DNA of 64,000 bases from assembly GCF_013283785.1 (NCBI RefSeq), contig NZ_JABCPZ010000003.1, positions 62,001 to 126,000 on the forward strand, in the 5' to 3' direction. The DNA comes from Nonomuraea antri (GTDB lineage: Bacteria > Actinomycetota > Actinomycetes > Streptosporangiales > Streptosporangiaceae). Position 1 is the first letter of the stretch. The number at the start of each line of letters is the position of its first letter. Positions 9,561 through 38,503 of the stretch are shown here, piece by piece. The notes beneath the pieces were generated by a model. It had not been told where the DNA came from. It did no database searches and was given only the letters and a program-made list of their open reading frames with translations. Position numbers and translations under genes: made by a program.

Positions 9561-10937
9561 TCACTTATCCGAATTGGCGAGGGCCAGCAATGCGTTCGTG
9601 AACGCTTCCACCGGCGGCCTGACCAGGCCCGCACCGACTTGTCCCGTTCCAGCGATCCGGCCCGCGATGCCGGTGTTGACCACCGGCAGCAGCCCGGTTC
9701 TGGCCACCAGAGTGACATCGATCCCGATCGGCGTGCCGCGGAAGCCGAGTGCCGGGATCTGGTAGGCGGGATGCTCGGCGAGCGTGATCTCGTACATGGA
9801 GCGGGTGGCCGCCATCGCGTCCGGCACCTCGCCGCCGACGAACCTGACGATGGCCGGGGCCGCCGCCATCGCGAACCCGCCGAGCCCGGACGTCTCGGTG
9901 ATCGTGGAGTCGCCGATGTCCGGGTTCGCGTCGTCCGGGCCGTACGCGCCGAGATACAGGCCGTCCGGCACGCCCGCCGGGCCGGTGAACCAGCGGTCGC
10001 CTAGCCCCGACACCTGCACGCCGAAGTCGGTGCCGTTGCGCGCCATGGCCACCACCAGCGACGAGCCCGGCACGTCCCTGGCCGCGTCGGTGCTCACCTT
10101 GCCCGCGGCCATGCCCGCGTTGAGGAAGAAGTGGTCGTTGCCGTTGATGAAGCGCAGCACCTCGGCCGCCTGCCCCGGCGCGGACTCCACCACCGCCGGG
10201 GCCAGCTCGCGCAGCAGCAGCGAGGTGGCCGCCCGGTTGCGGTTGTGCAGCTCGTCGCCCATCTGCAGGGCCTGCGCCATCATCGAGCGCAGATCGATCG
10301 GCCCGGTACGCGCCAGCGTCGCCGCCAGCACCGGACCCAGCACCTCGTCCATCCAGCGCAGCCGGTCGAGCACCTCCGGGCCGTAGGCGCCGTAGCGCAG
10401 CACCTTGCCCAGGCCCTCGTTCAGCGAGCAGTACGCGGTGCCGCCGTGCTCCTCGTCACGCACCTCCAGCAGCCACATCGACGGGCTCACCACGCCCGCC
10501 ATCGGCCCCACCGCCGCGTGCGCGTGGCACGGCGCCAGCGCGATCTCCCCGCCGGCCAGCCTGGACGCCGCCTCGTGCTCGTCGGCCGCGTGCCCTTCGA
10601 GCAACATCGCGCCGATCAGCGCGCCGCGCATCGGCCCGGACGCCCGCTCCCAGGTGATGGGCGGGCCCGCGTGCAGGAACGTGCGCGCGGGCAGCACCTC
10701 GGCGGCCCGCCGCACCCCCACCAGGTACGGCCGCGCCGACACCAGCCGGCCCACCGCCCGCTCGTTGGCGGCCTGCCTGCGCGGATCGGCCAGCACCTCG
10801 GCCAGCGCCTCGGCGGTGCCCGGCAGCGGCGGACGCCAGTCCACCGGGGTGGTCGCGGCGGCCTGGGCGCGGAGCGCGTCGTCGAGCAGACGCGCCCCGA
10901 CGGTGATCACGTGGGGCGGGGCGGAGAGCAGCGTCAT
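9561..10937 (-). CDS. allG: DUF1116 protein, AllG/YlbE-like subunit of oxamate carbamoyltransferase
   Basis: A 458-residue protein of the DUF1116 family, recognised from segments such as GALIGAMLLEGHA and NGNDHFFLNAGMAAGK. In E. coli the homologue YlbE (AllG) works with FdrA (AllF) and YlbF (AllH) to split oxalurate with phosphate into oxamate and carbamoyl phosphate. It is the third gene of the operon allH-fdrA-allG; its ATG overlaps the fdrA stop (ATGA). No carbamate kinase gene lies beside it, unlike in enterobacteria, so the carbamoyl phosphate may go elsewhere or the substrate may be another ureido acid. Confidence 0.85.
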   Translation of the reverse strand: MTLLSAPPHVITVGARLLDDALRAQAAATTPVDWRPPLPGTAEALAEVLADPRRQAANERAVGRLVSARPYLVGVRRAAEVLPARTFLHAGPPITWERASGPMRGALIGAMLLEGHAADEHEAASRLAGGEIALAPCHAHAAVGPMAGVVSPSMWLLEVRDEEHGGTAYCSLNEGLGKVLRYGAYGPEVLDRLRWMDEVLGPVLAATLARTGPIDLRSMMAQALQMGDELHNRNRAATSLLLRELAPAVVESAPGQAAEVLRFINGNDHFFLNAGMAAGKVSTDAARDVPGSSLVVAMARNGTDFGVQVSGLGDRWFTGPAGVPDGLYLGAYGPDDANPDIGDSTITETSGLGGFAMAAAPAIVRFVGGEVPDAMAATRSMYEITLAEHPAYQIPALGFRGTPIGIDVTLVARTGLLPVVNTGIAGRIAGTGQVGAGLVRPPVEAFTNALLALANSDK

Positions 10938-12427
10938 AGGAGAGTCCTGGCGTACCTGGCGGCTTGGGCGTTGGAGACGAACACGGCCGCGCCGGCGCGG
11001 CTGAAGGCGGCCGCCTGGCGGTCCGGGTCCTGCGGGTCGCCGGCCGCGCCGATCAGCGCGATCACCACGGTGGCCGGCGTGCGGGCCACGGCCGGGGCGA
11101 GCGCGGCGGCCGGGTCGGGGTCGGCGCCGTGGCCCAGCACGACGTCCATCAGCACGACGTCGCCTTCCCGCGCCTTGGCCAGGGCCTCGACGCGCAGGGT
11201 CGGGTCGATCATCGGGTGGGCGCGGCCCCTGGTGAAGGCGTCGTCGCCGTAGTCGACGAAGTCGCCGCCGCCGGCGATCAGCTCGGCTTCCGACTTGAGC
11301 GTGCCGCCGGAGTAAACGCCTCTGAGCGTCCCCATCGGTGCGGCAGCCGGTGGCGGAGCGGGGAGACCCGGCCAGTACGGCCACTCGGGCACCGGGCGGC
11401 CGAGCCGGCGCAGCGCCTCCTCGGCGGCCCACGTCAGGTCACCGCCGAACCCGCCCGGCTCCGCGGGTTCTTCTGTGGGCTCGCCGAGCAGGGCGAGGAC
11501 GACCGGGGTGCGGAGCCCGGACACCGCCGTCCGCACCCTGCTCGCCACGTCCGGCGCGGGCGGCTTGGAGACGAGCACGATCAGCTCGGTGGCCGGGTCG
11601 TCGTCCAGCAGCCGCAGGGCACGCAGCGTGGACAGGCCGCCCACCTCGGACGACAGGTCGCGACCGCCGACCCCGAGCACGTGGCTGACCCCGACGCCGG
11701 CCCGGTCGAGCAGGCAGGTCACCTGCTGGGCGCCGGTGCCCGAGGCGGCGACCAGGCCGACGGGGCCCGGGCTGAGCACGTTCGAGAAGCCGAGCCCGAC
11801 GCCGGCGATCGCCGCGGTGCCGCAGTCCGGGCCCATGACGAGCACGTCACGCTGGTCCGCCAGCTCCTTGAGCCGCCGTTCCTGGGCGAGCGGCACGCCG
11901 TCGCTGAAGATCATGACGGGCAGCCCGGCCTCGACGGCGTCCAGTGCCTCGCCGAAGGCGTGTTCGCCGGGCACCGACACCAGGACCAGGTCCGCCGGAC
12001 GCCTGGCGGCCGAGCGGGTGGTCAGCGGCGGCCGGTCAGGCTCGCCCGCTTGCCCCGCGCCCGGGTACGGCCGCTGTGACAGCGCGGCGAGCTGCCTGTC
12101 GAGCTCCTGGGCGGCGAAGTCCGGGTCGCCGCCGCGCAGCGCGACCAGCAGGTCGCCAGGCTCGGCCGCGGGCACCGCGAAACCGAGGTCGCGGGCCAGC
12201 GACAGGTTCAGCTCAGTGGCCATCGCGACCACCGCCACCGTCATCCCCGGCAGCTCGCCCAGCGCCCGGCTGACCCGCATCAGGCTGACCGAGTCGTGGT
12301 AGACGCCCTTGCGCAGCCACACCAGATCCCGCACCGGCTCGCCCACGCCGCTGACGGGACCGCTGACCGGATCGCCGACCGGACCACTGATGGGGCCGCT
12401 GACCGGACCGCTGACGGGGCTGCTCAT
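10934..12427 (-). CDS. fdrA: FdrA/AllF-like subunit, acyl-CoA-synthetase fold
   Basis: A 497-residue FdrA-family protein related to succinyl-CoA synthetase subunits, with a CoA-binding-like N-terminal half (GPDCGTAAIAGVGLGF, VAASGTGAQQVTCLLDRAGVG) and a ligase-like C-terminal half (GVYSGGTLKSEAELI). It is the likely main catalytic subunit of the carbamoyl-transferring complex with the two neighbouring gene products. It overlaps allH upstream and allG downstream by 4 nt each. The first 27 residues are a low-complexity SGPV repeat not expected in the family. A start at the GTG encoding Val27 would remove it, but neither start has a good ribosome site. Confidence 0.85.
   Translation of the reverse strand: MSSPVSGPVSGPISGPVGDPVSGPVSGVGEPVRDLVWLRKGVYHDSVSLMRVSRALGELPGMTVAVVAMATELNLSLARDLGFAVPAAEPGDLLVALRGGDPDFAAQELDRQLAALSQRPYPGAGQAGEPDRPPLTTRSAARRPADLVLVSVPGEHAFGEALDAVEAGLPVMIFSDGVPLAQERRLKELADQRDVLVMGPDCGTAAIAGVGLGFSNVLSPGPVGLVAASGTGAQQVTCLLDRAGVGVSHVLGVGGRDLSSEVGGLSTLRALRLLDDDPATELIVLVSKPPAPDVASRVRTAVSGLRTPVVLALLGEPTEEPAEPGGFGGDLTWAAEEALRRLGRPVPEWPYWPGLPAPPPAAAPMGTLRGVYSGGTLKSEAELIAGGGDFVDYGDDAFTRGRAHPMIDPTLRVEALAKAREGDVVLMDVVLGHGADPDPAAALAPAVARTPATVVIALIGAAGDPQDPDRQAAAFSRAGAAVFVSNAQAARYARTLL
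12350..12424. repeat. 12-bp tandem repeat at the 5' end of fdrA
   Basis: On the minus strand the units are variants of AGCGGTCCGGTC, each coding Ser-Gly-Pro-Val, about five and a half times (variants include SGPI and GDPV). It begins directly after the fdrA ATG and the allH stop. It either adds a flexible N-terminal tail to FdrA or is untranslated leader if a downstream GTG is used. Confidence 0.7.
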
Positions 12428-13275
12428 TGGGGGCCGCCGAGCGCCAGCACCGCCATGAGCCCGATCGCCACGCCCTGGGCCAGGTCGGCCCCCGAGGTGT
12501 GGCCGAGCGCGTGCAGCCGGCGCACCGCCGGTTCGAGCGGCTGCCGCCCGGCCAGGCCGCGCAGCACCGCGATCACCTCCGGGCTGGCCTCGCCCCTGGC
12601 CGCGCAGTGCAGCAGCGTCGCCGAGATCGGCGTCGTACGGGTGCGCGCGTCGAACGTGACGGTCGCCGCCAGCCAGTCGGCCAGCCACACCGCCCGCCCG
12701 GTGGCGGTGGCCGAGCCCAGGTGCCTGAGCGTCACCAGCAGCCCGGCCAGCACGTCGTCGCCGCTGGGCGTGAGCCCGGGACCGAGACCGACGAGCCGCT
12801 CGGCCGCCGTCACCGCGCCGAGCAGCCACCCGGACGCGCAACTGGCCGCGAGCAGCTCCACGGCCGGGTTCCCGGCCAGCCCGGGCGGGCCGCCGTCGAG
12901 CCGGGACGCGCCGCCCGCGAGCACGCTCCTGTCGATCGGGCCGAGCGGGGGAGCGGGGTCCCACCAGCGGCGGGCGCGCAGGCTCAGCCGGCCCAGCTCG
13001 ACCGTGCCGTCGCCGACCGACGCGTCGTCACCCACCGTGACGTGCGGGAGCGGCGCGGCCAGCAGCACCGAGTTGGGCAGCCTGGTCGCCGCCCCGGTGA
13101 TCATGGCGATGACCGACGGTTCGAGATCGGTCCTGACCTCCAGATAGACGCCGGCCGGGAACGCCGCGAGCACCCGGGCCGGCCGGCGCGGCCCGTCGAG
13201 CACGGCGCGGATCGCGGTGCTGGCCGCGCCCGTCACATGGGTGCGTGCCCGCCTCGCGTGAATACCGACGGTCAC
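12424..13275 (-). CDS. allH: DUF2877 protein, AllH/YlbF-like subunit of oxamate carbamoyltransferase
   Basis: A 283-residue DUF2877 protein, identified by the conserved LVGLGPGLTPSGDDVLAG segment near residue 165. The E. coli homologue YlbF (AllH) is the third subunit of oxamate carbamoyltransferase. It is the first gene of the three-gene operon. The start is GTG 13275 with GGGAGG 6 nt upstream. It is transcribed away from pucR, with 130 bp of shared upstream DNA carrying a perfect 14-bp palindrome. Confidence 0.85.
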   Translation of the reverse strand: MTVGIHARRARTHVTGAASTAIRAVLDGPRRPARVLAAFPAGVYLEVRTDLEPSVIAMITGAATRLPNSVLLAAPLPHVTVGDDASVGDGTVELGRLSLRARRWWDPAPPLGPIDRSVLAGGASRLDGGPPGLAGNPAVELLAASCASGWLLGAVTAAERLVGLGPGLTPSGDDVLAGLLVTLRHLGSATATGRAVWLADWLAATVTFDARTRTTPISATLLHCAARGEASPEVIAVLRGLAGRQPLEPAVRRLHALGHTSGADLAQGVAIGLMAVLALGGPQ

Positions 13276-13323
13276 CGGACCTCCCTACCGACCATGGGTC
13301 TGACCGTAGAACGGGCCGGGAAC

Positions 13324-13337
13324 CCTCCGTACGGAGG
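13324..13337. promoter_or_regulatory. Perfect 14-bp palindrome between allH and pucR
   Basis: CCTCCGTACGGAGG lies near the middle of the 130-bp divergent intergenic region, about 50 nt from the allH start and 69 nt from the pucR start. Its placement is right for a PucR binding site controlling both directions. The half-site CTCCG/CGGAG recurs, with wider spacing, in the inverted repeat ahead of the first NCS2 permease gene. Confidence 0.55.
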
Positions 13338-13405
13338 AATTTGCCAAGAGTCAGCGGGAAGGTTGTGTCTTCCTGACAGACCGCTTCTCGGGTCACAATC
13401 ACCAC

Positions 13406-15073
13406 ATGGAGCCCCCCGTCCGTCTCGCCAGCACGGGAACGATCATTCACGGTGTGTCGGTCGGAGAGGTGCTCGGCGTCTCCTCGCTGGCCGAGGCCAG
13501 GCTGATCGCGGGGGAGAGCGGGCTCGGCCGGATCGTGCAGCGGCTGAACGTCATGGAGGTGCCGGACATCCTGGCCTGGGTGAAGCCGCACGAGCTGCTG
13601 CTCACCACCGGCTACCCGCTGCGCAACACGCCGCAGTCGCTCGGCCGCCTGGTGGCCGACCTGGACGAACGCGGCCTGGCCGCGCTGGCCATCAAGCTCG
13701 GCCGCTACGTCGACGAGCTGCCCGGCGAGATGATCGAGCAGGCCGACCGCCTGGGCTTCCCGCTCATCCTGCTGCCCAACGACGTGGGCTTCGACGACAT
13801 CCTCAACCAGGTGCTGACCGACATTCTCAACCGCCAGGCCGCCGTGCTCGCCCGCGCCGAGGAGGCGCACCGGGCGCTGGTGCAGGTGGTGCTGGCCGGC
13901 GGCGGGCTCGACGAGGTCACCGCCGAGGTGGCCCAGCTGCTCGACGTGGCGGTGGCGGCGGTCGACGGCGGCGGCCGGATCCTGGCCGCCGCAGGACCGC
14001 CCGACCACATCACGGCGCTGCGCGAGTCCATCACCCGCGAGGGCCCGCCGGTCCAGACCTCCCGCACGTCCGGCGGAGGCGGCCGGGCGAGCGCCGGCAC
14101 GAGCACGGGAACCACCGGCGCGGGCACCGGAACCGGCGGGCGCGCGTTCGCCTCGGTGCCCGTGGTCGCCGGCGGGCACCACCACGGCAGGATCGTCGCC
14201 TGCAGCCCGTCCGGCGCGATCAGGGACAGCGACGTCGGCATCCTGGAACGTGCCGCCACGGTCGCCGCCCTGGTCGTCACCCGCCAGGAGGCGGTCAACG
14301 CGGTCGAGAGCAAGTACCGCGCCGACTTCCTGCGCGACGTGCTCACCGGCCGGGCCGGCACCGCCGAGCGGGTGATGGCCAGGGCCAGAGCGTTCGGCTG
14401 GGACCTGGAGCGGCCGGTGACCGTCCTGGTGGCCGAGCTCGACCCCGAAGGCGACGAGCGCAGCGCGCAGGACCGGCTGGTCACCTGCTGGACGGCGGCC
14501 ATGCGCAGGCACGATCCGCGCGGCGCGGTGGCGGGCTTCTCGCACGAGGTGGTGGCCGTGGTGGGCGCCGCGATCGACGCCGCCAGAGTGGCCAAGGACG
14601 CCGCCTCGGCGTTCGCCGACGTGCCGCCGGCCACGTTCTCGACCGGCACCTCCCGGCCGAGCCCGGGAGCCGAGCTGCTGCCCGAGGCGTACTCGCAGGC
14701 GTTGAAGGCGGCCAGGGTCGGCCGCCAGCTGCACGGCCCGGGGGCGGTGGCGCACTTCGACCAGCTCGGCGTCTACCGGCTGCTGTCGCTGGTCAACGAC
14801 ACCGGCGAGCTGCACGCGTTCGTCCGCGAGACGCTCGGCCCGCTCGCCTCCGACGACGACGCCGAGAACGGCGACCTGCGGCGCACCCTGCAGGTGCTGC
14901 TGGAGACCAACCTCAACGTGGCCGAGACGGCCAGGCGGCTGCACTTCCACTACAACACGCTGCGTTACCGCATCGGCAAGCTCGAACGCCTGCTCGGCAA
15001 CTTCACCGACGACCCGCACCTGCGGCTCAACCTGACGCTGGCCCTGCACGTGCTGCGGATGCGCGGCATCTAG
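13406..15073 (+). CDS. PucR-family transcriptional regulator of purine/ureide catabolism
   Basis: A 555-residue PucR/CdaR-type regulator. Residues about 20-140 form the PucR N-terminal domain (PDILAWVKPHELLLTTGYPL), the middle is a GGDEF-like fold, and the C-terminal end carries the helix-turn-helix LNVAETARRLHFHYNTLRYR. Family members sense purine breakdown products and control the degradation genes. It diverges from the allH-fdrA-allG operon and precedes the permease and Mo-hydroxylase genes, so it is the obvious local regulator. ATG 13406 is the first start; a GTG 48 nt downstream is possible. Confidence 0.9.
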   Translation: MEPPVRLASTGTIIHGVSVGEVLGVSSLAEARLIAGESGLGRIVQRLNVMEVPDILAWVKPHELLLTTGYPLRNTPQSLGRLVADLDERGLAALAIKLGRYVDELPGEMIEQADRLGFPLILLPNDVGFDDILNQVLTDILNRQAAVLARAEEAHRALVQVVLAGGGLDEVTAEVAQLLDVAVAAVDGGGRILAAAGPPDHITALRESITREGPPVQTSRTSGGGGRASAGTSTGTTGAGTGTGGRAFASVPVVAGGHHHGRIVACSPSGAIRDSDVGILERAATVAALVVTRQEAVNAVESKYRADFLRDVLTGRAGTAERVMARARAFGWDLERPVTVLVAELDPEGDERSAQDRLVTCWTAAMRRHDPRGAVAGFSHEVVAVVGAAIDAARVAKDAASAFADVPPATFSTGTSRPSPGAELLPEAYSQALKAARVGRQLHGPGAVAHFDQLGVYRLLSLVNDTGELHAFVRETLGPLASDDDAENGDLRRTLQVLLETNLNVAETARRLHFHYNTLRYRIGKLERLLGNFTDDPHLRLNLTLALHVLRMRGI

Positions 15074-15076
15074 GCT
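15071..15076 (+). promoter_or_regulatory. -10 box formed by the pucR stop codon
   Basis: TAGGCT starts with the TAG stop of pucR and ends 6 nt before the GTG start of the S4 protein gene. This matches the TAGNNT plus 6-8 nt spacing seen at other probable leaderless genes in the window. No ribosome site is present. Confidence 0.45.
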
Positions 15077-15082
15077 TACCCC

Positions 15083-15286
15083 GTGGAATTCGAACTGCGC
15101 TCCGAGTACATCCCGCTGTGTGATCTCCTGAAGTACTGCGGCATCACGGAGACGGGCGGCATGGCCAAGCACCTGATCGCCGAGGGCATGGTGCTGGTCG
15201 ACGGCGAGGTGGAGCTCAGGAAGACCGCCAAGATCCGTTCCGGCCAGGTGGTCAGCGGCGAGGGCTTCTCGATCGACGTGCGCTGA
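15083..15286 (+). CDS. Small S4-domain RNA-binding protein (YbcJ-like)
   Basis: A 67-residue protein consisting only of an S4 RNA-binding fold: LCDLLKYCGITETGGMAKHLIAEGMVLVDGE is the typical alphaL motif, followed by RSGQVVSGEG. Free-standing S4 proteins of this size bind structured RNA, probably rRNA. GTG 15083 lies 9 nt after the pucR stop. It has no obvious link to base catabolism. Confidence 0.88.
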   Translation: MEFELRSEYIPLCDLLKYCGITETGGMAKHLIAEGMVLVDGEVELRKTAKIRSGQVVSGEGFSIDVR

Positions 15287-15352
15287 CTCGCCGCGCGACA
15301 CGCCAGGTGAACGGGCCGCCACCCCCTGTGCGAAGTACTCGCGGCCACCGTC

Positions 15353-15385
15353 TATTGTGCTCTCCGACACAACGTCGGAGAGCAC
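15353..15385. promoter_or_regulatory. Perfect 12-bp inverted repeat over the promoter of the first NCS2 permease gene
   Basis: GTGCTCTCCGAC (15357-15368) and GTCGGAGAGCAC (15374-15385) form a perfect inverted repeat around ACAAC. A possible -10 box TATTGT (15353-15358) overlaps its left arm, so a protein bound there would block initiation. Alternatively the RNA could fold into a 12-bp hairpin. The permease start is 38 nt downstream. Confidence 0.6.
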
Positions 15386-15423
15386 GGCCGCTGGTCGGGT
15401 CATGGATATAGGGGTTGGCGGGC

Positions 15424-16746
15424 GTGGCGCTCGGATGGAAGCTGCACGGAGACGGCAAGCGGCTGGCGGCCGGCGAGGTGGTCAAGCCGGAAGAACGGCT
15501 CACCTGGCCGCGCATGGTGGGGTTCGGTGCGCAGCACGTCATCGCGATGTTCGGCGCGACGTTCGTGTTCCCGCTGGTCATGGGGCTCGACGCGAACCTG
15601 GCCGTGATGATGTCGGGCGTCGCGACCATCCTGTTCCTGCTGATCGTCAAGGGGAAGATCCCCAGCTACGTCGGCTCCAGCGCGTCGTTCGTCGGCGCGG
15701 TGACGGCGATCAGGCTGGGCGGCGGTGACAGCGCGACCGTGACGGGCGCGCTGCTGGCCGTCGGCGTCGTGCTGGCGCTGTGCGGGCTGGTGATCCACAA
15801 GCTGGGCGTGCAGATCATCCACCGGGTCTTCCCGCCGATCGTCACCGGCGGCGTGGTCATGCTGATCGGGTTCGGCATGGCGTACGTGGCCGCCGACGTG
15901 TACTGGCCGCAGGACCCCTGGGTGGCGCTGCTCACCATGGCGGCCACGTTCGTGTTCATCGGCGTTCTGCGCGGCTTCCTCGGCCGGATCGGGGTGCTGC
16001 TCGGGCTGGTGTTCGGCTTCCTGCTGTCGTGGGGCTGGGACCAGATCGACGGCAAGATCCTTTCCGCTGACGGCAGCGGCAAGGTGACCGAGCACTTCCG
16101 CGTCAACCTCGACGCCGTCGCCGCCGCCGACTGGATCGGGCTGCCGAAGCTGCATGGCCCGGTCTTCGAGGTATCGGCGATCGTGCTGGTGCTGCCCGTG
16201 GTGATCGCGCTGATCGCGGAGAACGTCGGCCACGTCAAGGCCGTGGGCGAGATGACCGGCACCGACGTCGACGCCTACATGGGCCGGGCGGTCCTGGCCG
16301 ACGGCGTCGGCACGGTCGTGGCCACGTCCGTCGGCGGCTCGGCCACCACCACCTACGCGGAGAACATCGGCGTCATGGCCGCCACCCGCGTCTACTCCAC
16401 GGCCGCCTACTACGTCGCCGCCGTCATCGCCATCCTGTTCGGGCTGTGCCCCAAGTTCGGCGCGCTCATCGCCGCCACGCCCGGCGGCGTGCTCGGCGGC
16501 GTCACCACCATCCTGTACGGCATGATCGGCCTGCTCGGCGCCAAGATCTGGATCGAGAACCGGGTCAACCTGTCCGACCCGGTCAACCTGGTGCCGGTGG
16601 GCGCGGGCATCATCTGCGCCATCGGCCCGGTGGCGTTCCCGCTGACCGACACGTTCGCGCTCAGCGGCATCGCGCTGGGCACGATCGTCCTGCTGCTCGG
16701 CTACCACCTGCTGCGCGTGACCCGCAAGGAGGAGGTCACCGCGTAG
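15424..16746 (+). CDS. Uracil/xanthine permease, NCS2 family (copy 1)
   Basis: A 440-residue nucleobase:cation symporter with about 14 hydrophobic segments. Diagnostic features are GFGAQHVIAMFGATFVFP at the start of the transport core and the AENVGHVKAVGEMTG signature near residue 265, whose Glu contacts the base in UraA-like proteins. The start GTG 15424 is chosen because ALGWKLHGDGK aligns with AWGWTKHGDGK at the start of the paralogue 2 kb downstream. It probably imports uracil or xanthine for the nearby Mo-hydroxylase pathway. The 3' end overlaps a convergent gene by 11 nt. Confidence 0.93.
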   Translation: MALGWKLHGDGKRLAAGEVVKPEERLTWPRMVGFGAQHVIAMFGATFVFPLVMGLDANLAVMMSGVATILFLLIVKGKIPSYVGSSASFVGAVTAIRLGGGDSATVTGALLAVGVVLALCGLVIHKLGVQIIHRVFPPIVTGGVVMLIGFGMAYVAADVYWPQDPWVALLTMAATFVFIGVLRGFLGRIGVLLGLVFGFLLSWGWDQIDGKILSADGSGKVTEHFRVNLDAVAAADWIGLPKLHGPVFEVSAIVLVLPVVIALIAENVGHVKAVGEMTGTDVDAYMGRAVLADGVGTVVATSVGGSATTTYAENIGVMAATRVYSTAAYYVAAVIAILFGLCPKFGALIAATPGGVLGGVTTILYGMIGLLGAKIWIENRVNLSDPVNLVPVGAGIICAIGPVAFPLTDTFALSGIALGTIVLLLGYHLLRVTRKEEVTA

Positions 16747-17215
16747 GGCGGTCGTAGTAGCCGGGCCCGGCGATCAGGACGTGCCCGAAGCGGGCGCGGT
16801 CCTCGTCGTCGGGGACGACCATGCCGCCCAGGCCGACGGAGAGTTCGGGGACGGTGCCGCCGAAGCCGTCCTCGATCTCGACCTCGAACCGCTCGCCCAG
16901 CGTGGCGAGCACGTCCTCGGCGGGGGTGGCGAACACGTCCATGCCCAGCAGCAGCACCCGCGCGGCCGGGTGCGTGTCGTCGTCGTCGCGGAAGATCTCG
17001 ATCGTCTGGACCACCCCGGTCGAGCCGCAGTGCACGTGGACGTCCACGCCGCCGCCCGTCAGCCGCCAGTCCAGCGGCAGCGCCCCCGGGTACGGCGCGT
17101 GCTCCCGGGGCTCGCCCCACGCGCGCAGCGCGGCGCCCGCCCGCTCCCGCGTGGCGCCCAGGAGGACCGGGCCCGCGCCGCGGAGCGGGTCCAGTTCGAT
17201 GGTCAATGAACTCAT
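16736..17215 (-). CDS. Hypothetical protein
   Basis: A 159-residue acidic soluble protein that I do not recognise. It has no signal peptide, membrane segment or clear motif. The C-terminal part (PELSVGLGGMVVPDDEDRARFGHVLIAGPGYYD) suggests a compact globular domain. ATG 17215 has GAGGGG 8 nt upstream; an upstream in-frame TTG is less likely. It is inserted in the opposite direction between two paralogous permease genes and diverges from the second. Confidence 0.7.
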   Translation of the reverse strand: MSSLTIELDPLRGAGPVLLGATRERAGAALRAWGEPREHAPYPGALPLDWRLTGGGVDVHVHCGSTGVVQTIEIFRDDDDTHPAARVLLLGMDVFATPAEDVLATLGERFEVEIEDGFGGTVPELSVGLGGMVVPDDEDRARFGHVLIAGPGYYDRPTR

Positions 17216-17340
17216 GACATAACCCCTCAATCCCCGATATGTCGGGCGACCATGATTCCGCAGGATCAGGGATCGCCTGGTCCCGCGCCGAGATTTGGCA
17301 GATCATGCCCGTGTAGGAGCGGGGCTCTGGACTTAATGTG

Positions 17341-17367
17341 CCCGGCAACAGCACTGTCCGCGCCGGG
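17341..17367 (+). promoter_or_regulatory. Possible leader hairpin before the second NCS2 permease gene
   Basis: CCCGGC (17341-17346) and GCCGGG (17362-17367) can pair around a 15-nt loop between a TAATGT -10-like box (17334-17339) and the GGGGC ribosome site of the permease gene. It could be a leader stem affecting translation. It does not resemble the inverted repeat of the first permease gene. Confidence 0.3.
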
Positions 17368-17383
17368 CCGAAATGGGGCTCAC

Positions 17384-18808
17384 ATGGCATGGGGATGGAC
17401 CAAACACGGTGACGGCAAGAGCCTGGCCCCCGACGAGGTGGTCAGGCCCGAGGAACGGTTGTCCTGGCCGCGCATGGTGGGGTTCGGGGCCCAGCATGTG
17501 ATCGCGATGTTCGGCGCGACGTTCGTCTTCCCCCTGGTCATGGGGCTCGACCCGAACGTGGCCGTGATGATGTCCGGCGTCGCGACCATCCTGTTCCTGC
17601 TGATCGTCAAGGGGAAGGTGCCCAGCTACCTGGGCACCAGCGCGTCGTTCGTCGGCGGCGTGTTCGCCATCAGGGCCGCCGCCGGCGGCGACACCGCAGG
17701 CGCCGACGCGATCGTGACCGGCGCCATCCTGGTCGCCGGGCTGGTGCTGGCGCTGGCCGGGCTGGCGGTCCACTGGCTCGGGGTGCAGATCATCCACCGG
17801 GTCTTCCCGCCGGTGGTGACCGGCGCGGTGGTGATGCTGATCGGGTTCGGGCTGGCGTTCGTGGTGGCCGACGTCTACTGGCCGCAGGACCAGTGGGTCG
17901 CCTTCCTCACCATGCTGGTGACGTTCCTGGTCATCGTCGGCTTCAAGGGTTTCATCGGGCGGATCGGGGTGCTGGTCGGGCTGGTCGTCGGTTTTGTCCT
18001 GTCGTGGGGGCTGGACAAGACCGCCGGCCCGATCACCGCCAAGCTGCCCGGCCAGAACCTGCGTGACGCGGCCGGGGCGAGCTGCCCGGTCGAGGGGACG
18101 TACTGCGTGGCCACGCCGTTCGCGCACGACCGGGTGAGCTTCGCCGCCTTCGAGCAGGCCCCCTGGTTCGGGCTGCCCGACTTCCACGTGCCCGACTTCA
18201 AGACCTCGGCCGTGCTGCTGGTGCTGCCCGCGGTCATCGCGCTGATCGCGGAGAACGTCGGGCACGTCAAGGCCGTGGGTGAGATGACCGGCACCGACGT
18301 CGACCCGTACGTGGGCCGGGCCATCGCCGCCGACGGCGCGGCCACCGTGCTCACCAGCGCCGTGGGCGGCTCGCCGACCACCACCTACGCCGAGAACATC
18401 GGCGTCATGGCGGCCACCAAGGTCTACTCGACGGCCGCCTACTACATCGCCGGCGCGATCGCGATCCTGTTCGGGCTCTCGCCCAAGTTCGGCGCGCTGG
18501 TGGCCGCCACGCCGGGTGGCGTGCTCGGCGGCGTCACCGTCATCCTGTACGGCATGATCGGACTTCTCGGCGCGAAGATCTGGATCGAGAACCGGGTGAA
18601 CTTCGCGGACCCGGTCAACATGGTCCCGATCGGCGCCGGCGTCATCCTGGCGATCGGACCGGTGAAGCACGTGATCGGTGGCGACTTCACGCTCGAAGGC
18701 ATCGCGCTCGGCACCGTCGTGGTGGTGGGCGGGTACCACCTGCTGCGCGTCATCGCGGGCCGGCGCGCGGCCGAACCGGCTCGGCCGGCCGGGAGCGACG
18801 CCGGGTGA
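17384..18808 (+). CDS. Uracil/xanthine permease, NCS2 family (copy 2)
   Basis: A 474-residue paralogue of the permease at 15424-16746, nearly identical over long stretches such as WPRMVGFGAQHVIAMFGATF and AENVGHVKAVGEMTGTDVD. It carries an extra segment of about 30 residues in the middle (KLPGQNLRDAAGASCPVEG and following, with two Cys) that copy 1 lacks. ATG 17384 has GGGGC at a suitable distance. Its last codons overlap the GTG of the FAD-subunit gene (GTGA), linking transport directly to the Mo hydroxylase. The loop difference suggests a different substrate preference. Confidence 0.93.
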   Translation: MAWGWTKHGDGKSLAPDEVVRPEERLSWPRMVGFGAQHVIAMFGATFVFPLVMGLDPNVAVMMSGVATILFLLIVKGKVPSYLGTSASFVGGVFAIRAAAGGDTAGADAIVTGAILVAGLVLALAGLAVHWLGVQIIHRVFPPVVTGAVVMLIGFGLAFVVADVYWPQDQWVAFLTMLVTFLVIVGFKGFIGRIGVLVGLVVGFVLSWGLDKTAGPITAKLPGQNLRDAAGASCPVEGTYCVATPFAHDRVSFAAFEQAPWFGLPDFHVPDFKTSAVLLVLPAVIALIAENVGHVKAVGEMTGTDVDPYVGRAIAADGAATVLTSAVGGSPTTTYAENIGVMAATKVYSTAAYYIAGAIAILFGLSPKFGALVAATPGGVLGGVTVILYGMIGLLGAKIWIENRVNFADPVNMVPIGAGVILAIGPVKHVIGGDFTLEGIALGTVVVVGGYHLLRVIAGRRAAEPARPAGSDAG

Positions 18809-19761
18809 AGCCGCCGCCGTTCGAGTACCACGCGCCCCGCGACCTCGGCGACGCGCTGCGCGTACTGGCCGAGGTGCGGGGGAAGGTGCTGGCCGGCGGG
18901 CAGAGCCTGATCCCGATGCTGAACATGCGGCTGGCCGCGCCCGCGCACCTGGTGGACGTCAACCGGCTGGGCGTGCTGGCCGCCATGGACGCGAGCGCCG
19001 CCGGGGTACGGGTGGGCGCGCTGGTCCGGCACGCCCAGGCCGAGCGGTCCTGGGCGCACCCGCTGCTGTCGCGGGCGCTGCGGCTGGTCGCGCACCCGGT
19101 GATCCGTAACCGGGGGACCGTGGTGGGCAGCCTGGTGCACGCCGACCCGGCGGCCGAACTGCCGGCCGTGCTGGCGCTCCTGGACGGCTCGGTGACGGTG
19201 GCCCGCTGGGGTGGGCCAGGCGGGCCGACGCAAGGCGGCGGGCCGGCGCCGGTGACCGCGGGCGCCGGCGGGCCGGGCGGCGACGGCCTCGTGGCGGTCC
19301 CCGCTGGCGCGACCCTGCGTGAGATCCCGGCGCACGCGTTCTTCACCGGCCCGATGGAGTCGGCCGTCGAGCCGGGGGAGCTGGCCGTCTCGGCGTTCTT
19401 CCCCGCGCTGGGCGCGCGTACCGGATCGGCCTTCCACGAGGTGGCCAGGCGGCACGGCGACTACGCGCTGGCCGGCGTGTGCGCCGTGGCGAGCCTCGAC
19501 GGCGACGGCGCCGTCGCCACCGCCCGGGTGGCCTGCGTCGGTGTCGGCCCGGTCCCCGTCGTCGTGGACGTGACCGCCGAATGCGCCGGTCGCCCGCCGT
19601 CCGAGACGCGGTGGGCGCGGGCGGCGCGGGCCGTCCAGGAACGCATCGAGCCGGAAGCGGACATCCACGCCACGGCCGCCTACCGGCGGCACCTCGTCGG
19701 CGTGCTCACCGAACGGGCGCTGCGCGAGGCGGCGGAAGGAGGCGCGGCGGGTGGAGCATGA
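18805..19761 (+). CDS. Molybdenum hydroxylase, FAD-binding subunit (CoxM/XdhB type)
   Basis: A 318-residue FAD subunit of the xanthine dehydrogenase family. The FAD-binding motif is VLAGGQSLIPMLNMRL near residue 30, followed by HPVIRNRGTVVGSLVHADPAAELP around residue 98-120; a CO-dehydrogenase flavoprotein C-terminal domain ends the protein. It passes electrons from the 2Fe-2S subunit to its acceptor. GTG 18805 overlaps the permease stop by 4 nt. Its own stop (19759-19761) lies in the first copy of a 33-bp repeat that duplicates the junction with the next gene. Confidence 0.92.
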   Translation: MKPPPFEYHAPRDLGDALRVLAEVRGKVLAGGQSLIPMLNMRLAAPAHLVDVNRLGVLAAMDASAAGVRVGALVRHAQAERSWAHPLLSRALRLVAHPVIRNRGTVVGSLVHADPAAELPAVLALLDGSVTVARWGGPGGPTQGGGPAPVTAGAGGPGGDGLVAVPAGATLREIPAHAFFTGPMESAVEPGELAVSAFFPALGARTGSAFHEVARRHGDYALAGVCAVASLDGDGAVATARVACVGVGPVPVVVDVTAECAGRPPSETRWARAARAVQERIEPEADIHATAAYRRHLVGVLTERALREAAEGGAAGGA

Positions 19762-19809
19762 GATCACGCCGGTGGGAGGAGGCGCGGCGGGTGGAGCATG
19801 AGATCACGC
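19737..19809. repeat. 33-bp direct repeat (40-bp tandem duplication) at the FAD/2Fe-2S gene junction
   Basis: AGGAGGCGCGGCGGGTGGAG and the 13 bases after it occur at 19737-19769 and 19777-19809 without mismatch. Each copy carries a ribosome site AGGAGG, a GTG 8 nt later and an ATGAG. Copy 1 holds the FAD-subunit stop; copy 2 supplies the likely start of the 2Fe-2S gene (GTG 19791). The GTG of copy 1 (19751) opens only a 16-codon reading frame that stops at 19799-19801. Confidence 0.95.
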
Positions 19810-20267
19810 TGACCGTCAACGGCACGGCCCGCCGGGTGCGGGTGCCCGCGCGGCGGCTGCTGTCGGACTGCCTGCGCCACGATCTCGGCCTCACCGGCAC
19901 CCACGTGGGCTGCGAGCACGGCGTCTGCGGCTGCTGCACGGTGCTGCTCGACGGCGAGCCGGTGCGCTCGTGCCTGACGTTCGCGGTGAGCGTGGACGAA
20001 TGCGAGATCACCACCGTCGAGGGCCTGGCCGGGCCCGGCGGGCTGTCCGCGGTGCAACGGGCGTTCGCCGAGTGCCACGGGCTGCAGTGCGGCTTCTGCA
20101 CCCCGGGCTTCCTGTGCACGGTGACCGCGCTGCTGCGGGCCAACCCGGCGCCGACCGACGACGAGGTGGTGGAGGGCATCTCGGGCAACCTGTGCCGGTG
20201 CACCGGCTACCAGAACATCGTCAAGGCCGTGCACCGGGCCGCCGAGCTGCTGGCCGAGGAGGCGTGA
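19791..20267 (+). CDS. Molybdenum hydroxylase, 2Fe-2S subunit (CoxS/XdhC type)
   Basis: A 158-residue ferredoxin-like subunit. It has the plant-type 2Fe-2S motif GCEHGVCGCCTVLLDG near residue 42 and the second cluster motif QCGFCTPGF with NLCRCTGYQNIV, all eight cysteines present. It wires the Mo site to FAD. GTG 19791 has AGGAGG 8 nt upstream. An ATG at 19758 would add 11 residues (RSRRWEEARRV), overlap the FAD stop as ATGA, and exists only because of the 40-bp duplication, so it is probably not the ancestral start. Confidence 0.92.
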   Translation: MEHEITLTVNGTARRVRVPARRLLSDCLRHDLGLTGTHVGCEHGVCGCCTVLLDGEPVRSCLTFAVSVDECEITTVEGLAGPGGLSAVQRAFAECHGLQCGFCTPGFLCTVTALLRANPAPTDDEVVEGISGNLCRCTGYQNIVKAVHRAAELLAEEA

Positions 20268-20271
20268 CGGG

Positions 20272-22644
20272 GTGACCACCAGACTGTTCGGCGAGCCGGT
20301 GCCGCGCCGCGAGGACCCCAGGCTGCTCACCGGGCAGGGCGCCTACCTCGACGACCTCGGCCCCGGCGCGCTGGCCGCCGCGTTCGTCAGGTCGCCGCAC
20401 GCGCACGCCCGCATCCGCGACATCGACGTCGGCCCGGCGCTCGACGTCGAGGGCCTGATCGCCGTCTACACCTGGGAGGACCTGCCGGAACGCGTCGGCA
20501 GGCCGCTGCCGCTGCTGATCCCGCACCCCGCGCTCACCCACGGACGCACCGCCTACCCGCTGGCCAGGGACATCGTCAGGCACGTCGGCGAGCCGGTGGT
20601 CATGGTGGTGGCCACCGACCGCTACGCCGCCGAGGACGCCTGCGCGCTCATCGAGGTCGACTACGAGCCGCTCAAGCCCGTCGTCGGCCTGGAGGAGGCC
20701 GCCCAGGGCGGCACGCTCGTGCACGACGACGTGCCCGGCAACGTCGGCGCGCACCTGGTGCAGGAGGTCGGCGCGGCCGACGGCCGGGGCGCCAGGGAGA
20801 CGATCGAGACCGCGCCGCACACGCTCGCCTTCCGGCTCGACATCGAGCGCAGCGCGAGCATGCCGCTCGAAGGCCGCGGCGTGTACGCCCGCTGGGACGG
20901 CCGCGACCTGCGCGTGTACTCCAGCACCCAGACCTCGACCAGCGTGCGCATGGCGCTGTCGGCCGCGCTCGGGCTGCCGCTGCCGCAGGTCGAGGTGATC
21001 GCGCCGGACGTCGGCGGCGGCTTCGGAGTGAAGATCGTGCATCCCTGGCCGGAGGAGGTGCTGATCCCGTGGGCGGCCATGACGCTGAACCGCGAGATCA
21101 AGTGGGCCGAGGACCGCAGGGAGCACTTCATCTCATCCGCGCACGAACGCGGGCAGGTCCAGTACGTCCGGGTCGGCTTCGACGACGACGGCCGGGTGCT
21201 CGGGCTCGACGTGACGATCCTGCACGACCACGGCGCCTACACCCCGTACGGGATCATCATCCCGATCGTCACCTCCACCCAGCTGCTCGGCCCGTACAAG
21301 ATCGGGTCGTACCGGGTGGAGTTCAGCGCCGTCTACACCAACACCGTGCAGGTCACGCCGTACCGGGGGGCCGGGCGTCCGCAGGCCGTGTTCTGCATGG
21401 AGCGGACCATGGACAAGATCGCCCGCCATCTCGGCAAGGATCGCGCGGAGGTGCGCCGGGCCAACTTCATCGGCCCCGACGAGTTCCCCTACGACCAGCG
21501 CATGACCTTCCAGGACGGCCGCCCGCTCATCTACGACAGCGGGAACTACCCGGAGATGCTGCGCATGCTCAAGGAGCTGATCGGCTGGGACACCCACGTC
21601 CGGCGGCCGGGCGTGGGCATCGGCCTGGGCTGCTACGTCGAGGGCACCGGCGTCGGCCCGTACGAGGGCGGCCACGTGATGGTCACCTCCGACGGCCGGG
21701 TGCACGTCTCCACCGGGCTCACCTCGCAGGGCCAGGGGCACGAGACCGTGTTCGCCCAGATCGCCGCCACCGAGCTGGGCGTGCCGATCGAGCGGGTCTC
21801 GGTGGTCACCGGCGACACGCGCAGGTTCGGTTACGCGGTCGGCACGTTCGCCTCGCGCGCGGCCGTGGTCAGCGGCAACGCCATCGCGCTGGCGTGCAGG
21901 AAGGTGCGCGAGAAGGCGCTGCGCATCGCCGCGGACGCGCTGGAGGCCGACCCGGCCGACCTGACCGTCAGCGACGGGATCGTGCACGTGGCGGGCACGC
22001 CGTCGGCGGCGATCCCGCTGTCGACGGTGGCGGTGCTGGCCAACCCGCTGCGTTACGCCTTCGACGAGGAGACCGCCAAGGCCACCCAGTTCGCCGGCGC
22101 CGCCGCGCCCGACCGTCCGCCGGTGGCCGAGGGGGACGAGCCAGGGCTGGAGGGCCGAGACTACTACTCGCCGATCAGGTCCACGTTCGCGGCGGGCATG
22201 CACGCGGCGATCGTCGAGACCGACCCGGACACCGCCGAGATCCGGGTGCTGCGGTACGCGGTCGTGCACGACTGCGGCAGGCTGATCAACCCGATGATCG
22301 TCGAGGGGCAGATCCACGGCGGCGTCGCGCAGGGCATCGGCGGCGCGCTGTACGAGCGCATGGCCTACGACGCGCACGGCCAGCTCGTCAACGCCTCGTT
22401 CATGGACTTCCTCATGCCGTACGCCACCGAGATCCCGCGCGTCGAGACCGCGCACCTGGAGACGCCGTCGCCGCTGAACCCGCTGGGCGTCAAGGGCGCG
22501 GGCGAGGCCGGGGTCATCCCGGTCTCGGCGGTGATCGCCTCGGCCGTCGAGGACGCCGAGGGCATCGAGATCGACCGCATGCCCATCTCGCCCTCCGACC
22601 TGTACGAGCTCCGCGAGCTGCGCGAGTCACGCCGTATGCCATGA
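20272..22644 (+). CDS. Molybdenum hydroxylase, large molybdopterin-binding subunit (XdhA/CoxL-like)
   Basis: A 790-residue catalytic subunit binding molybdenum-cytosine-dinucleotide-type cofactor. Recognisable parts are VPRREDPRLLTGQGAYLDD at the start, GGGFGVK near residue 245, PYRGAGRPQA near 365, GQGHETVFAQ near 487, and GVKGAGEAG near 743 with the catalytic Glu. The active-site loop is the YRGAGR type, not the AYXCSFR of true CO dehydrogenase. Together with the FAD and 2Fe-2S genes and the permease in one overlapping unit, it most likely hydroxylates a purine or pyrimidine. Xanthine dehydrogenase and uracil/thymine dehydrogenase are both possible. Confidence 0.92.
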   Translation: MTTRLFGEPVPRREDPRLLTGQGAYLDDLGPGALAAAFVRSPHAHARIRDIDVGPALDVEGLIAVYTWEDLPERVGRPLPLLIPHPALTHGRTAYPLARDIVRHVGEPVVMVVATDRYAAEDACALIEVDYEPLKPVVGLEEAAQGGTLVHDDVPGNVGAHLVQEVGAADGRGARETIETAPHTLAFRLDIERSASMPLEGRGVYARWDGRDLRVYSSTQTSTSVRMALSAALGLPLPQVEVIAPDVGGGFGVKIVHPWPEEVLIPWAAMTLNREIKWAEDRREHFISSAHERGQVQYVRVGFDDDGRVLGLDVTILHDHGAYTPYGIIIPIVTSTQLLGPYKIGSYRVEFSAVYTNTVQVTPYRGAGRPQAVFCMERTMDKIARHLGKDRAEVRRANFIGPDEFPYDQRMTFQDGRPLIYDSGNYPEMLRMLKELIGWDTHVRRPGVGIGLGCYVEGTGVGPYEGGHVMVTSDGRVHVSTGLTSQGQGHETVFAQIAATELGVPIERVSVVTGDTRRFGYAVGTFASRAAVVSGNAIALACRKVREKALRIAADALEADPADLTVSDGIVHVAGTPSAAIPLSTVAVLANPLRYAFDEETAKATQFAGAAAPDRPPVAEGDEPGLEGRDYYSPIRSTFAAGMHAAIVETDPDTAEIRVLRYAVVHDCGRLINPMIVEGQIHGGVAQGIGGALYERMAYDAHGQLVNASFMDFLMPYATEIPRVETAHLETPSPLNPLGVKGAGEAGVIPVSAVIASAVEDAEGIEIDRMPISPSDLYELRELRESRRMP

Positions 22645-27480: not shown

Positions 27481-27576
27481 GGCGCCCTATCTTGCCAGTT
27501 CTCCATGGGACGACGGGTGTCCCGGCTGGCAGGTGTTGCCCTATGTCCGCGGACCCGCGCTGCCTACAGTGGCGAT

Positions 27577-28218
27577 GTGAACATCGTGGGCAGCGCCGTG
27601 ATCGGCGTCGACAGGCAACGGTTGTGGGCGGCGCTGCGCGACCCGGCGGTGCTGGTGCGCACCCTGCCCGGGTGCGAGCGGCTGGAGGAGACCGGGCCCG
27701 ACACGTACAGGATGACGATCAGCGCGGGCGTCGCCTCCATCAAGGGCGTCTACCAGGGCGAGGTGGCGCTGAGCGAGCCGTCCGAGCCCGAGCGCTTCGT
27801 GCTCGAGGCCCGCGGGCAGGGCGCGCCGGGGACGGTCGCGGCCACCGTCCAGGTGCGGCTGGCCGAGAGCGACGGCGGCACCCGCGTCGACTACGACGCC
27901 GACGCGGTGATCGGCGGGATGATCGGCGGGGTCGGGCAGCGGCTGCTCGCCTCGGTGGCCAAGCGCACCGCCGCCGAGTTCTTCACCGCCGTCGAGCAGC
28001 ACCTGCGCGCCCCGGCCGCCCTGGCCGTCGTTCCCGACACCGCGGAGCCGGCCGTGCACGAGCGTCCGGCCGTCGTACACGAGCGTCCGGCGGCCGAGCG
28101 GCACACCGAGACGCGGCCCTGGGTGATGCTCGCCTCCTTCGGCATGGGCGCGGGCATCGCCCTGACCGGGGTGGCCGTCGGGTGGCTGCTGGGCCGCGCC
28201 GGGCGACGCCGTTCCTGA
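27577..28218 (+). CDS. CoxG-like SRPBCC protein with C-terminal membrane anchor
   Basis: A 213-residue protein. Residues 1-145 form a CO dehydrogenase subunit G (CoxG) type SRPBCC domain (GSAVIGVDRQRLWAALRDPAVLVRTLPGCE, then GVYQGEV). A linker with repeated VHERPA units leads to one transmembrane helix near residues 180-205 with a basic end. In CO oxidisers CoxG tethers the Mo enzyme to the membrane, so this protein may anchor the Mo hydroxylase encoded 5 kb upstream. GTG 27577 lies 6 nt after a TACAGT -10 box, indicating a leaderless mRNA. Confidence 0.85.
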   Translation: MNIVGSAVIGVDRQRLWAALRDPAVLVRTLPGCERLEETGPDTYRMTISAGVASIKGVYQGEVALSEPSEPERFVLEARGQGAPGTVAATVQVRLAESDGGTRVDYDADAVIGGMIGGVGQRLLASVAKRTAAEFFTAVEQHLRAPAALAVVPDTAEPAVHERPAVVHERPAAERHTETRPWVMLASFGMGAGIALTGVAVGWLLGRAGRRRS

Positions 28219-38426: not shown

Positions 38427-38503
38427 GGGACCCAGGGTAGGTGGAACAGGGCGGGAGCCTGAGAGAATATTCTTTCGCCCCGGACGCACGCTGGAGGTTG
38501 ATC

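Follow-up and report, generated by a model that had tools for sequence, protein, structure and literature searches.

What does the carbamoyltransferase-like trio AllF, AllG, and AllH act on when a divergent pucR gene stands beside it in place of allantoin genes? The question is raised by a 64-kb stretch of the Nonomuraea antri genome (the window), i.e., bases 62001-126000 of contig NZ_JABCPZ010000003.1 in an assembly of 11.67 Mb and 580 contigs. The initial annotation described an allH-fdrA-allG operon diverging from pucR, then two NCS2 permeases and the FAD, 2Fe-2S, and molybdenum (Mo) subunits of a hydroxylase, with overlaps, and all of these families were found by profiles. It took them as a compact island and framed the trio as purine degradation. 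Neither view was kept. The island spans approximately 46 kb, of which the annotated part is the left third, with an amidase and carbamate kinase located elsewhere in the genome. The linked genes point to pyrimidine, and a barbiturase gene 32 kb downstream had been overlooked. The window is likely to carry an oxidative uracil-degradation island with a phosphorolytic step. The presence of the genes, the barbiturase signature, the co-occurrence, and the gene order are established, and every substrate named below is one that we infer.

The barbiturase gene (54236..55333, + strand) was recognized by PF09663 (487 bits). By genome-wide search it was the single copy of this family. The best PDB match was 5hwe, aligned over the full length with 578 bits, and the other solved family members, cyanuric acid hydrolases among them, scored 321-200 bits. 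The barbiturase group (VI) is marked by Asn195, His321, Lys325, Val345, and Ser or Ala346 in AtzD numbering (PMC3758960; this and the other papers cited here were available in part). The window protein reads N-H-K-V-A at these five specificity residues, i.e., the barbiturase set, and its action on barbiturate is predicted from this signature. The protein nevertheless passes the cyanuric acid amidohydrolase model NF052395 with 468 bits against a cut-off of 360. Cyanuric acid hydrolase was considered as its identity and rejected. The motif of that enzyme is S-G-G-X-E-X-Q-G-P (PMC9118981), whereas the window protein reads S-V-A-A-V-H-Q-G-P, has barbiturase-type residues, and has a barbiturase as its closest structure. 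PF09663 proteins at other loci (L224-L228) read N-H-K-G-G, A-V-M-G-G, or N-H-K-E-Q and fit neither published set; they include copies beside an amidase (L226 and L228).

The trio genes were located on the minus strand at the left of the window. The allG gene (DUF1116; 9561..10937; PF06545, 324 bits; best PDB 3clq, 389 bits) was the only copy in the whole genome. The allF gene, i.e., fdrA (10934..12427), encodes a CoA-ligase-like subunit (PF00549 Ligase_CoA; best PDB 3dmy, FdrA), and allH (DUF2877; 12424..13275; PF11392, 100 bits) encodes the third subunit. Thus, the FdrA, DUF1116, and DUF2877 subunits are all present in one operon. AllH and AllF overlap by 4 bases, as do AllF and AllG, and also the second permease and the FAD subunit. 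The allF product scored 334 bits with the FdrA subfamily model, below the 433-bit cut-off.

In a tree of 81/82 AllG rows, which did not include E. coli, was rooted at the midpoint, and carried a long-branch warning, the 69 AllG rows from barbiturase genomes formed one clade with support 100/96, and the window AllG was inside it. Outside were carbamate-kinase-linked AllG of genomes without barbiturase, together with distant copies. One AllG of a barbiturase genome also fell outside, as a second, distant copy of G068. The residues W155, R235, T303, and G426 were fixed in 69/69 clade rows. At the same positions, E. coli reads P, I, N, and H, and five other carbamate-kinase-linked AllG read P, A/V/L, V, and H. 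The residue comparison comprised 69 AllG, 64-69 AllF, and 61 AllH rows of the clade, and motifs shared with E. coli were kept there, e.g., MGPDCGT of AllF, and NEG and MGDE of AllG. On our reading of the residues, the carbamoyl-transfer chemistry would be conserved and the acceptor site changed. Elsewhere, AllF and AllG adjoin carbamate kinase in genomes without PF09663 or an over-cut-off AllD (L160, L164, L165, L168, and L169), with an isochorismatase-family gene upstream of the trio at L160. Divergent AllG-family proteins, 40-42% identical, had no AllF recognised alongside (L170-L176).

The Mo hydroxylase genes follow on the plus strand, i.e., the FAD subunit (18805..19761; PF00941, PF03450), the 2Fe-2S subunit (19758..20267; PF01799, PF00111), and the large subunit (20272..22644), a candidate uracil dehydrogenase. 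Enzymes of the Mo hydroxylase superfamily usually hydroxylate, with water, a carbon adjacent to a ring nitrogen, and this is the chemistry needed to convert uracil to barbiturate. The enzyme class that oxidises uracil to barbiturate is uracil/thymine dehydrogenase. The large subunit passes NF040766, named 'CODH_aero_grp5', with 1449 bits (cut-off 950), but scores 456 bits with the main carbon monoxide (CO) dehydrogenase model (cut-off 991). A xanthine dehydrogenase, i.e., the purine reading, was rejected at 391/780, 371/916, and 281/784 bits against the cut-offs of XdhA-type models. The closest solved structures were quinoline 2-oxidoreductase (429 bits), 6-hydroxypseudooxynicotine dehydrogenase (428 bits), and CoxL (424 bits).

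The active-site loop of the window subunit is TPYRGAGR. PYRGAGR was found in the large subunits of all 48 genomes readable at this site, and the CSFR loop was absent from all large-subunit rows of more than 50% identity; 28 further rows were pieces of 64-347 amino acids (aa) without the loop. Form I CO oxidisers have the loop AYXCSFR; for form II, the function is described as unclear (PMC13203968). The form I loop is thus lacking in the window, and the Mo hydroxylase probably acts on uracil rather than CO. Its candidacy as uracil dehydrogenase comes from co-occurrence with PF09663.

This co-occurrence was counted in the same 394 genomes of the class, which were searched for AllG, PF09663, NF040766, carbamate kinase, and the AllD family. 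AllG was found in 88 genomes, PF09663 in 82, NF040766 over cut-off in 76, and AllD over cut-off in 74. AllG and PF09663 occurred together in 75 genomes (odds ratio 246), and so did PF09663 and the Mo family (75 genomes, odds ratio 3332). PF09663 was present in 75 of the 76 genomes over the NF040766 cut-off. All three were present in 73 genomes from 14 families. Five genomes (G031, G093, G100, G122, and G347) had PF09663 but neither AllG nor the Mo family, and their PF09663 proteins failed the barbiturase signature. With these five set aside, AllG was present in 75/77 barbiturase genomes, covering 34 of 36 barbiturase genera, and the Mo hydroxylase was also present in 75/77. Direct reading of the signature covered 45 of these 77 genomes and gave N-H-K-V-A/S in 44 and N-Y-K-V-S in one (G020); the others were assigned by family score, and two of them (G209 and G023) are broken or cut pieces.

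At least 62 of the 77 genomes have a carbamate kinase gene no more than 400 bp from barbiturase. AllG and PF09663 shared a contig in 47 of the 71 genomes with both places listed. They were 1.7 Mb apart in G059 and more than 100 kb apart in G134, G154, G174, G192, and G235, so linkage is not required for their joint presence. The AllD family was over cut-off in 21 of the 88 AllG genomes, i.e., without association (odds ratio 1.5, p 0.17).

The gene grouping was repeated in relatives. Among 68 loci of the same AllG clade, some of which end at contig ends, AllF was present in 68, PucR in 60, AllH in 58, NCS2 in 56, and the Mo large subunit in 54, and PucR was opposite in strand to AllG in all 60 loci having it. 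Because of this repetition, the grouping is not due to chance. In the 59 named loci of at least 20 kb, the counts were AllF 59, Mo large subunit 54, NCS2 52, AllH 51, and PucR 49. The nearest AllG among 80 named loci was that of Nonomuraea, with 83-89% identity in its nine rows.

Behind the Mo subunit, the order was read in 21 chosen genomes, in 20-kb stretches that may stop before arcC and barbiturase. The coxG gene was found in 20 of them, hyuA/hyuB in 18, arcC and barbiturase in 11, CoA-transferase in nine, and carboxyltransferase in six. The order Mo-coxG-(amidase)-hyuA-hyuB-arcC-bar was seen, within the limits of each stretch, in all 11 that reach barbiturase. The CoA-transferase and carboxyltransferase were placed before arcC in six genomes and beyond barbiturase in three. 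The window retains the order of the relatives, stretched to 46 kb and minus arcC and the amidase. The distance from AllG to barbiturase is 42 kb in Nonomuraea gerenzanensis, and Embleya sp. NBC_00888 has the full set, hyuA through allG, in no more than 36 kb. In Ornithinimicrobium pekingense, allG is followed by the amidase, with barbiturase, CoA-transferase, and carboxyltransferase nearby.

The corresponding genes of the window, all on the plus strand, are a coxG-like accessory gene (27505..28218; PF06240), a hyuA-like gene (30981..32984; PF01968) that is caprolactamase-alpha-like at 491 bits against a cut-off of 1000, a hyuB-like gene (32977..34785; PF02538, 466 bits), a family III CoA-transferase gene (38441..39691; PF02515, 392 bits), which is a candidate malonate CoA-transferase, and an AccD-AccA-type carboxyltransferase gene (39837..41321; PF01039, PF03255), which is a candidate for malonyl-CoA handling.

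The pathway proposed for the island would start with uracil import by an NCS2 permease. The Mo hydroxylase, as uracil dehydrogenase, would hydroxylate C6 of uracil with water and yield barbiturate, which barbiturase would open to ureidomalonate. AllFGH would then replace the hydrolytic ureidomalonase and convert ureidomalonate and phosphate to carbamoyl phosphate and malonamate, by analogy with the E. coli relative, which converts oxalurate to oxamate and carbamoyl phosphate. From carbamoyl phosphate, carbamate kinase would produce ATP, CO2, and ammonia; its gene adjoins that of barbiturase in most relatives, and the window's genome has it in arginine deiminase clusters. Malonamate would be split to ammonia and malonate by an amidase-signature enzyme, which some relatives encode within the cluster and this genome on another contig, and malonate would be removed by the CoA-transferase and carboxyltransferase.

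Could the trio instead degrade oxalurate? In an ordinary split pathway, it would be an oxalurate carbamoyltransferase fed by distant allantoin genes. The initial annotation had reported allantoin genes and carbamate kinase as absent. This stood for the window, where none was recognised, but not for the genome, where both are present. The genome search that it proposed recovered allantoinase and carbamate kinases but no AllD-family gene: PF02615 gave 0 matches in the whole genome, although the E. coli control was detected. Allantoinase (TIGR03178, 542 bits), allantoicase, glyoxylate carboligase, and a hydroxypyruvate-isomerase-like gene are clustered side by side on contig C91, and an amidohydrolase on C73 that was tried as allantoinase was rejected as a dihydroorotase. 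This cluster and the kinases would fit a split pathway, as would the 48% identity of AllG to E. coli YlbE and an AllD-family gene in 19 of the 75 genomes with AllG and PF09663. However, allantoicase and glyoxylate carboligase imply a route via glyoxylate in which oxalurate is not needed, and the residues fixed in the AllG clade differ from those of E. coli.

The kinases argue in the same direction. Both strong carbamate kinases of the genome sit in arginine deiminase clusters, and carbamate kinase was for this reason rejected as a member of the locus; none is in the operon of the window's trio, whereas in relatives the kinase adjoins barbiturase. Oxalurate was rejected as the substrate, given the genome without the AllD family and the lack of AllD-AllG association, and the split pathway is quite improbable here. 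Another N-carbamoyl acid, as the initial annotation had thought possible, is favoured because barbiturase, whose product is ureidomalonate, lies in the window and AllG accompanies barbiturase in nearly all genomes that have it. Ureidomalonate was among the acids suggested there for assay.

Plasmids of other bacteria bear on a cyanuric acid route. On a Citrobacter freundii plasmid (L315, 11992-19633), genes for a ring-opening amidohydrolase, an NCS2 symporter, DUF2877, FdrA, DUF1116, and carbamate kinase are consecutive. FdrA, DUF1116, a ring opener, and carbamate kinase are also consecutive on plasmids of Klebsiella quasipneumoniae (L316) and Aminobacter sp. SR38 (L317), which count as one case because their FdrA, DUF1116, and ring-opener accessions are identical. 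Allophanate hydrolase is near the Klebsiella operon, and DUF2877 is several genes off in Aminobacter. Cyanuric-type residues, R-T-R-G-G, were found in the plasmid ring openers, and the four AllG positions are occupied there by P, Q or A, V, and H. The Embleya proteins read N-H-K-V-A and W, R, T, and G, the same as the window. Four regions were read in this check, among 132 and 193 matching records. As judged by sequence, the trio stands behind AtzD-family ring openers in two phyla, with AllG residues that vary according to the type of opener. These plasmid and Embleya readings raised our confidence in the uracil island slightly.

If the window encoded a cyanuric acid hydrolase, the trio would split 1-carboxybiuret to carbamoyl phosphate and allophanate. 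The NF052395 score and the three plasmids, which join a cyanuric-type opener, allFGH, and carbamate kinase, speak for this, as do nitrifiers with allFGHK beside biuret and triuret genes (PMC12625717). For the window it is nonetheless very improbable. Among solved structures, barbiturase matches the ring opener best by a wide margin, all five specificity residues are of the barbiturase type, the window AllG matches the barbiturase-linked and not the plasmid AllG, and the Mo hydroxylase would be unexplained. Elsewhere such a route may well exist, because the plasmid operons hold the ring opener, the trio genes, and the kinase together; there, cyanuric acid could possibly be converted through 1-carboxybiuret to carbamoyl phosphate and allophanate.

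It is unlikely, though less so, that the Mo hydroxylase is a CO dehydrogenase or another N-heterocycle enzyme, with barbiturase and AllFGH fed by imported barbiturate. This explanation shares the reading of the trio with the uracil pathway. The name of NF040766 and the nearly equal scores of the three nearest solved relatives favour it, as does a genome (G266) that holds the Mo set without barbiturase. Against it stand the loop, which is PYRGAGR in 48 genomes and CSFR in none, and the presence of PF09663 in all but one of the genomes over the NF040766 cut-off. Neutral linkage, i.e., unrelated genes kept together through shared ancestry, is the least probable of all. AllG and PF09663 often share a contig and the counts ignore phylogeny, but their joint presence is kept at distances above 100 kb and up to 1.7 Mb, AllG is found in nearly all barbiturase genera, and plasmids of Pseudomonadota likewise combine a ring opener with the trio and carbamate kinase.

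Several observations weigh against the uracil island. HyuAB has no place in the proposed scheme, and in G266 the Mo set and HyuAB are present in a genome that lacks both PF09663 and AllG. Because of G266, HyuAB may have an activity of its own, either ring opening or amide cleavage, and the arrangement there is a candidate for an alternative fate of the Mo product. The amidase was found in only 8 of the 21 relatives' stretches, one of them at 31% identity. The window's own genome does hold a good match to the relatives' cluster amidase (55% identity, 473 bits vs 172 for the next), which speaks for the pathway, but this gene is at one end of contig C278 and not on the contig of the island. In the window's genus, all three genomes lack a carbamate kinase next to barbiturase. 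AllG is missing from G206 and from the 72% complete G014, both of which carry barbiturase and the Mo subunit, and G020 and G119 have barbiturase and AllG with the Mo family not over cut-off, G119 having an 881-bit piece. The AllD-family genes among the AllG and PF09663 genomes, mentioned above, belong here as well. The co-occurrence counts treat genomes as independent and ignore shared ancestry. The NCBI annotation of the Mo subunit is CO dehydrogenase, and the described pathway ends with a hydrolytic ureidomalonase (PMC3758960).

Two of these genomes have further features. In G266 (L215 and L216), the genes for XdhC, PucR, NCS2, the FAD, 2Fe-2S, and Mo subunits, CoxG, HyuA, and HyuB are consecutive. 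G206 (L214, L196, and L230), with barbiturase and the Mo set but no AllG, is given as 100% complete and is a candidate place to look for ureidomalonase.

The remaining features of the window are located around the trio and the Mo hydroxylase. The pucR-type regulator (13406..15073, +) has PucR, GGDEF_2, and HTH_30 domains (PF07905, PF17853, and PF13556). The divergent region between allH and pucR was scanned for promoters and terminators, and none was found. A peripheral 67-aa open reading frame (ORF; 15083..15286, +), S4-like by eye only, was present in 19 of the 59 named loci of at least 20 kb, and a small minus-strand ORF also interrupts the plus-strand gene run. NCS2 permease a (15415..16746, +; PF00860, 238 bits) is of the uracil type by its nearest profile; it scored 348 bits with RutG, 245 with uracil permease, and 154 with the xanthine permease pbuX, all below cut-off. 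NCS2 permease b (17384..18808, +; PF00860, 241 bits) scored 360 bits with RutG, which was the best NCBIfam profile of both permeases, below its cut-off. The two are 69% identical. Two NCS2 copies were also seen in G315 and some Nonomuraea loci, whereas most other relatives have one, which suggests a duplication within Nonomuraea. At the junction of the FAD and 2Fe-2S genes, a 40-base tandem duplication (19730-19809, 95% identical) repeats the start region of the latter, so its start, 19758 or 19791, is uncertain. A leucine-rich repeat protein gene (22652-23683) directly follows the Mo subunit, as in 3 of the 59 named loci.

The island offers candidate genes for uracil oxidation and ureidomalonate cleavage in 73 of the 394 genomes, and it puts two database annotations in doubt. 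A trio acting on ureidomalonate, together with candidate genes for uracil dehydrogenase, would be new. If this is true, the AllFGH family gains a second substrate, so that oxalurate degradation could not be assumed wherever the trio occurs, and a family of supposed CO dehydrogenases drops out of the counts of CO oxidisers. A wider proposal is also reasonable, and we hold it as probable but less firmly than the island itself. A widespread, energy-conserving uracil pathway would exist in actinobacteria, in which the 'CO dehydrogenase' family is uracil dehydrogenase and the AllFGH clade is a ureidomalonate carbamoyltransferase leading to ATP. AllFGH would then serve more generally to salvage carbamoyl groups after AtzD-family ring openers, and its plasmid versions would act on 1-carboxybiuret derived from cyanuric acid.

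In the literature searched, barbiturase was the sole step of the pathway with a gene; most subscription journals were outside its coverage, so this is a weak negative. Within the same coverage, no paper had both barbiturase and FdrA, or barbiturase with molybd- and uracil. Searches of that literature for a uracil-oxidising gene and for malonamate gave nothing relevant, 'ureidomalonate' was absent among the matches listed, and no description of the plasmid operon of cyanuric-type opener, FdrA, DUF1116, and carbamate kinase was found.

Among known systems, AllFGH is the oxamic transcarbamylase (OXTCase) of E. coli (PMC11326118), and the available part of that paper contains no word starting with malon or barbit. 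The island has the same three families, the AllG similarity to YlbE, and the shared motifs, and carbamate kinase is linked in most relatives of the window's trio. In contrast to E. coli, it has a divergent pucR in place of allantoin genes, the genome lacks the AllD family, which forms oxalurate in the preceding step, AllG differs at residues 155, 235, 303, and 426, and the trio is linked to barbiturase and a Mo hydroxylase. The allFGHK genes of nitrifiers, read as oxalurate degradation despite missing upstream allantoin genes, resemble the island in this lack, but the available text mentions no barbiturase or Mo hydroxylase (PMC12625717). The form II 'CoxL' group, i.e., NF040766 CODH_aero_grp5, resembles the island in the over-cut-off score, the GAGR loop, and the downstream coxG, and the difference is that the family of the island is almost always accompanied by barbiturase. 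In the plasmid operons, an AtzD-family ring opener, AllF, AllG, and carbamate kinase are likewise adjacent as parts of one set. However, the ring opener is of the cyanuric type, AllG is without W/R/T/G, and no Mo hydroxylase is in the stretches seen.

Descriptions of an oxidative pyrimidine pathway date from the 1950s and concern few bacteria (PMC3758960). In the pathway of Soong et al., barbiturase is followed by a hydrolytic ureidomalonase that yields urea and malonate (PMC3758960, PMC4051656). The island shares with it the opening of the barbiturate ring by barbiturase. It differs in supplying candidate genes for the uracil-oxidising step, and in that it would phosphorolyse ureidomalonate, keeping the bond energy as carbamoyl phosphate.

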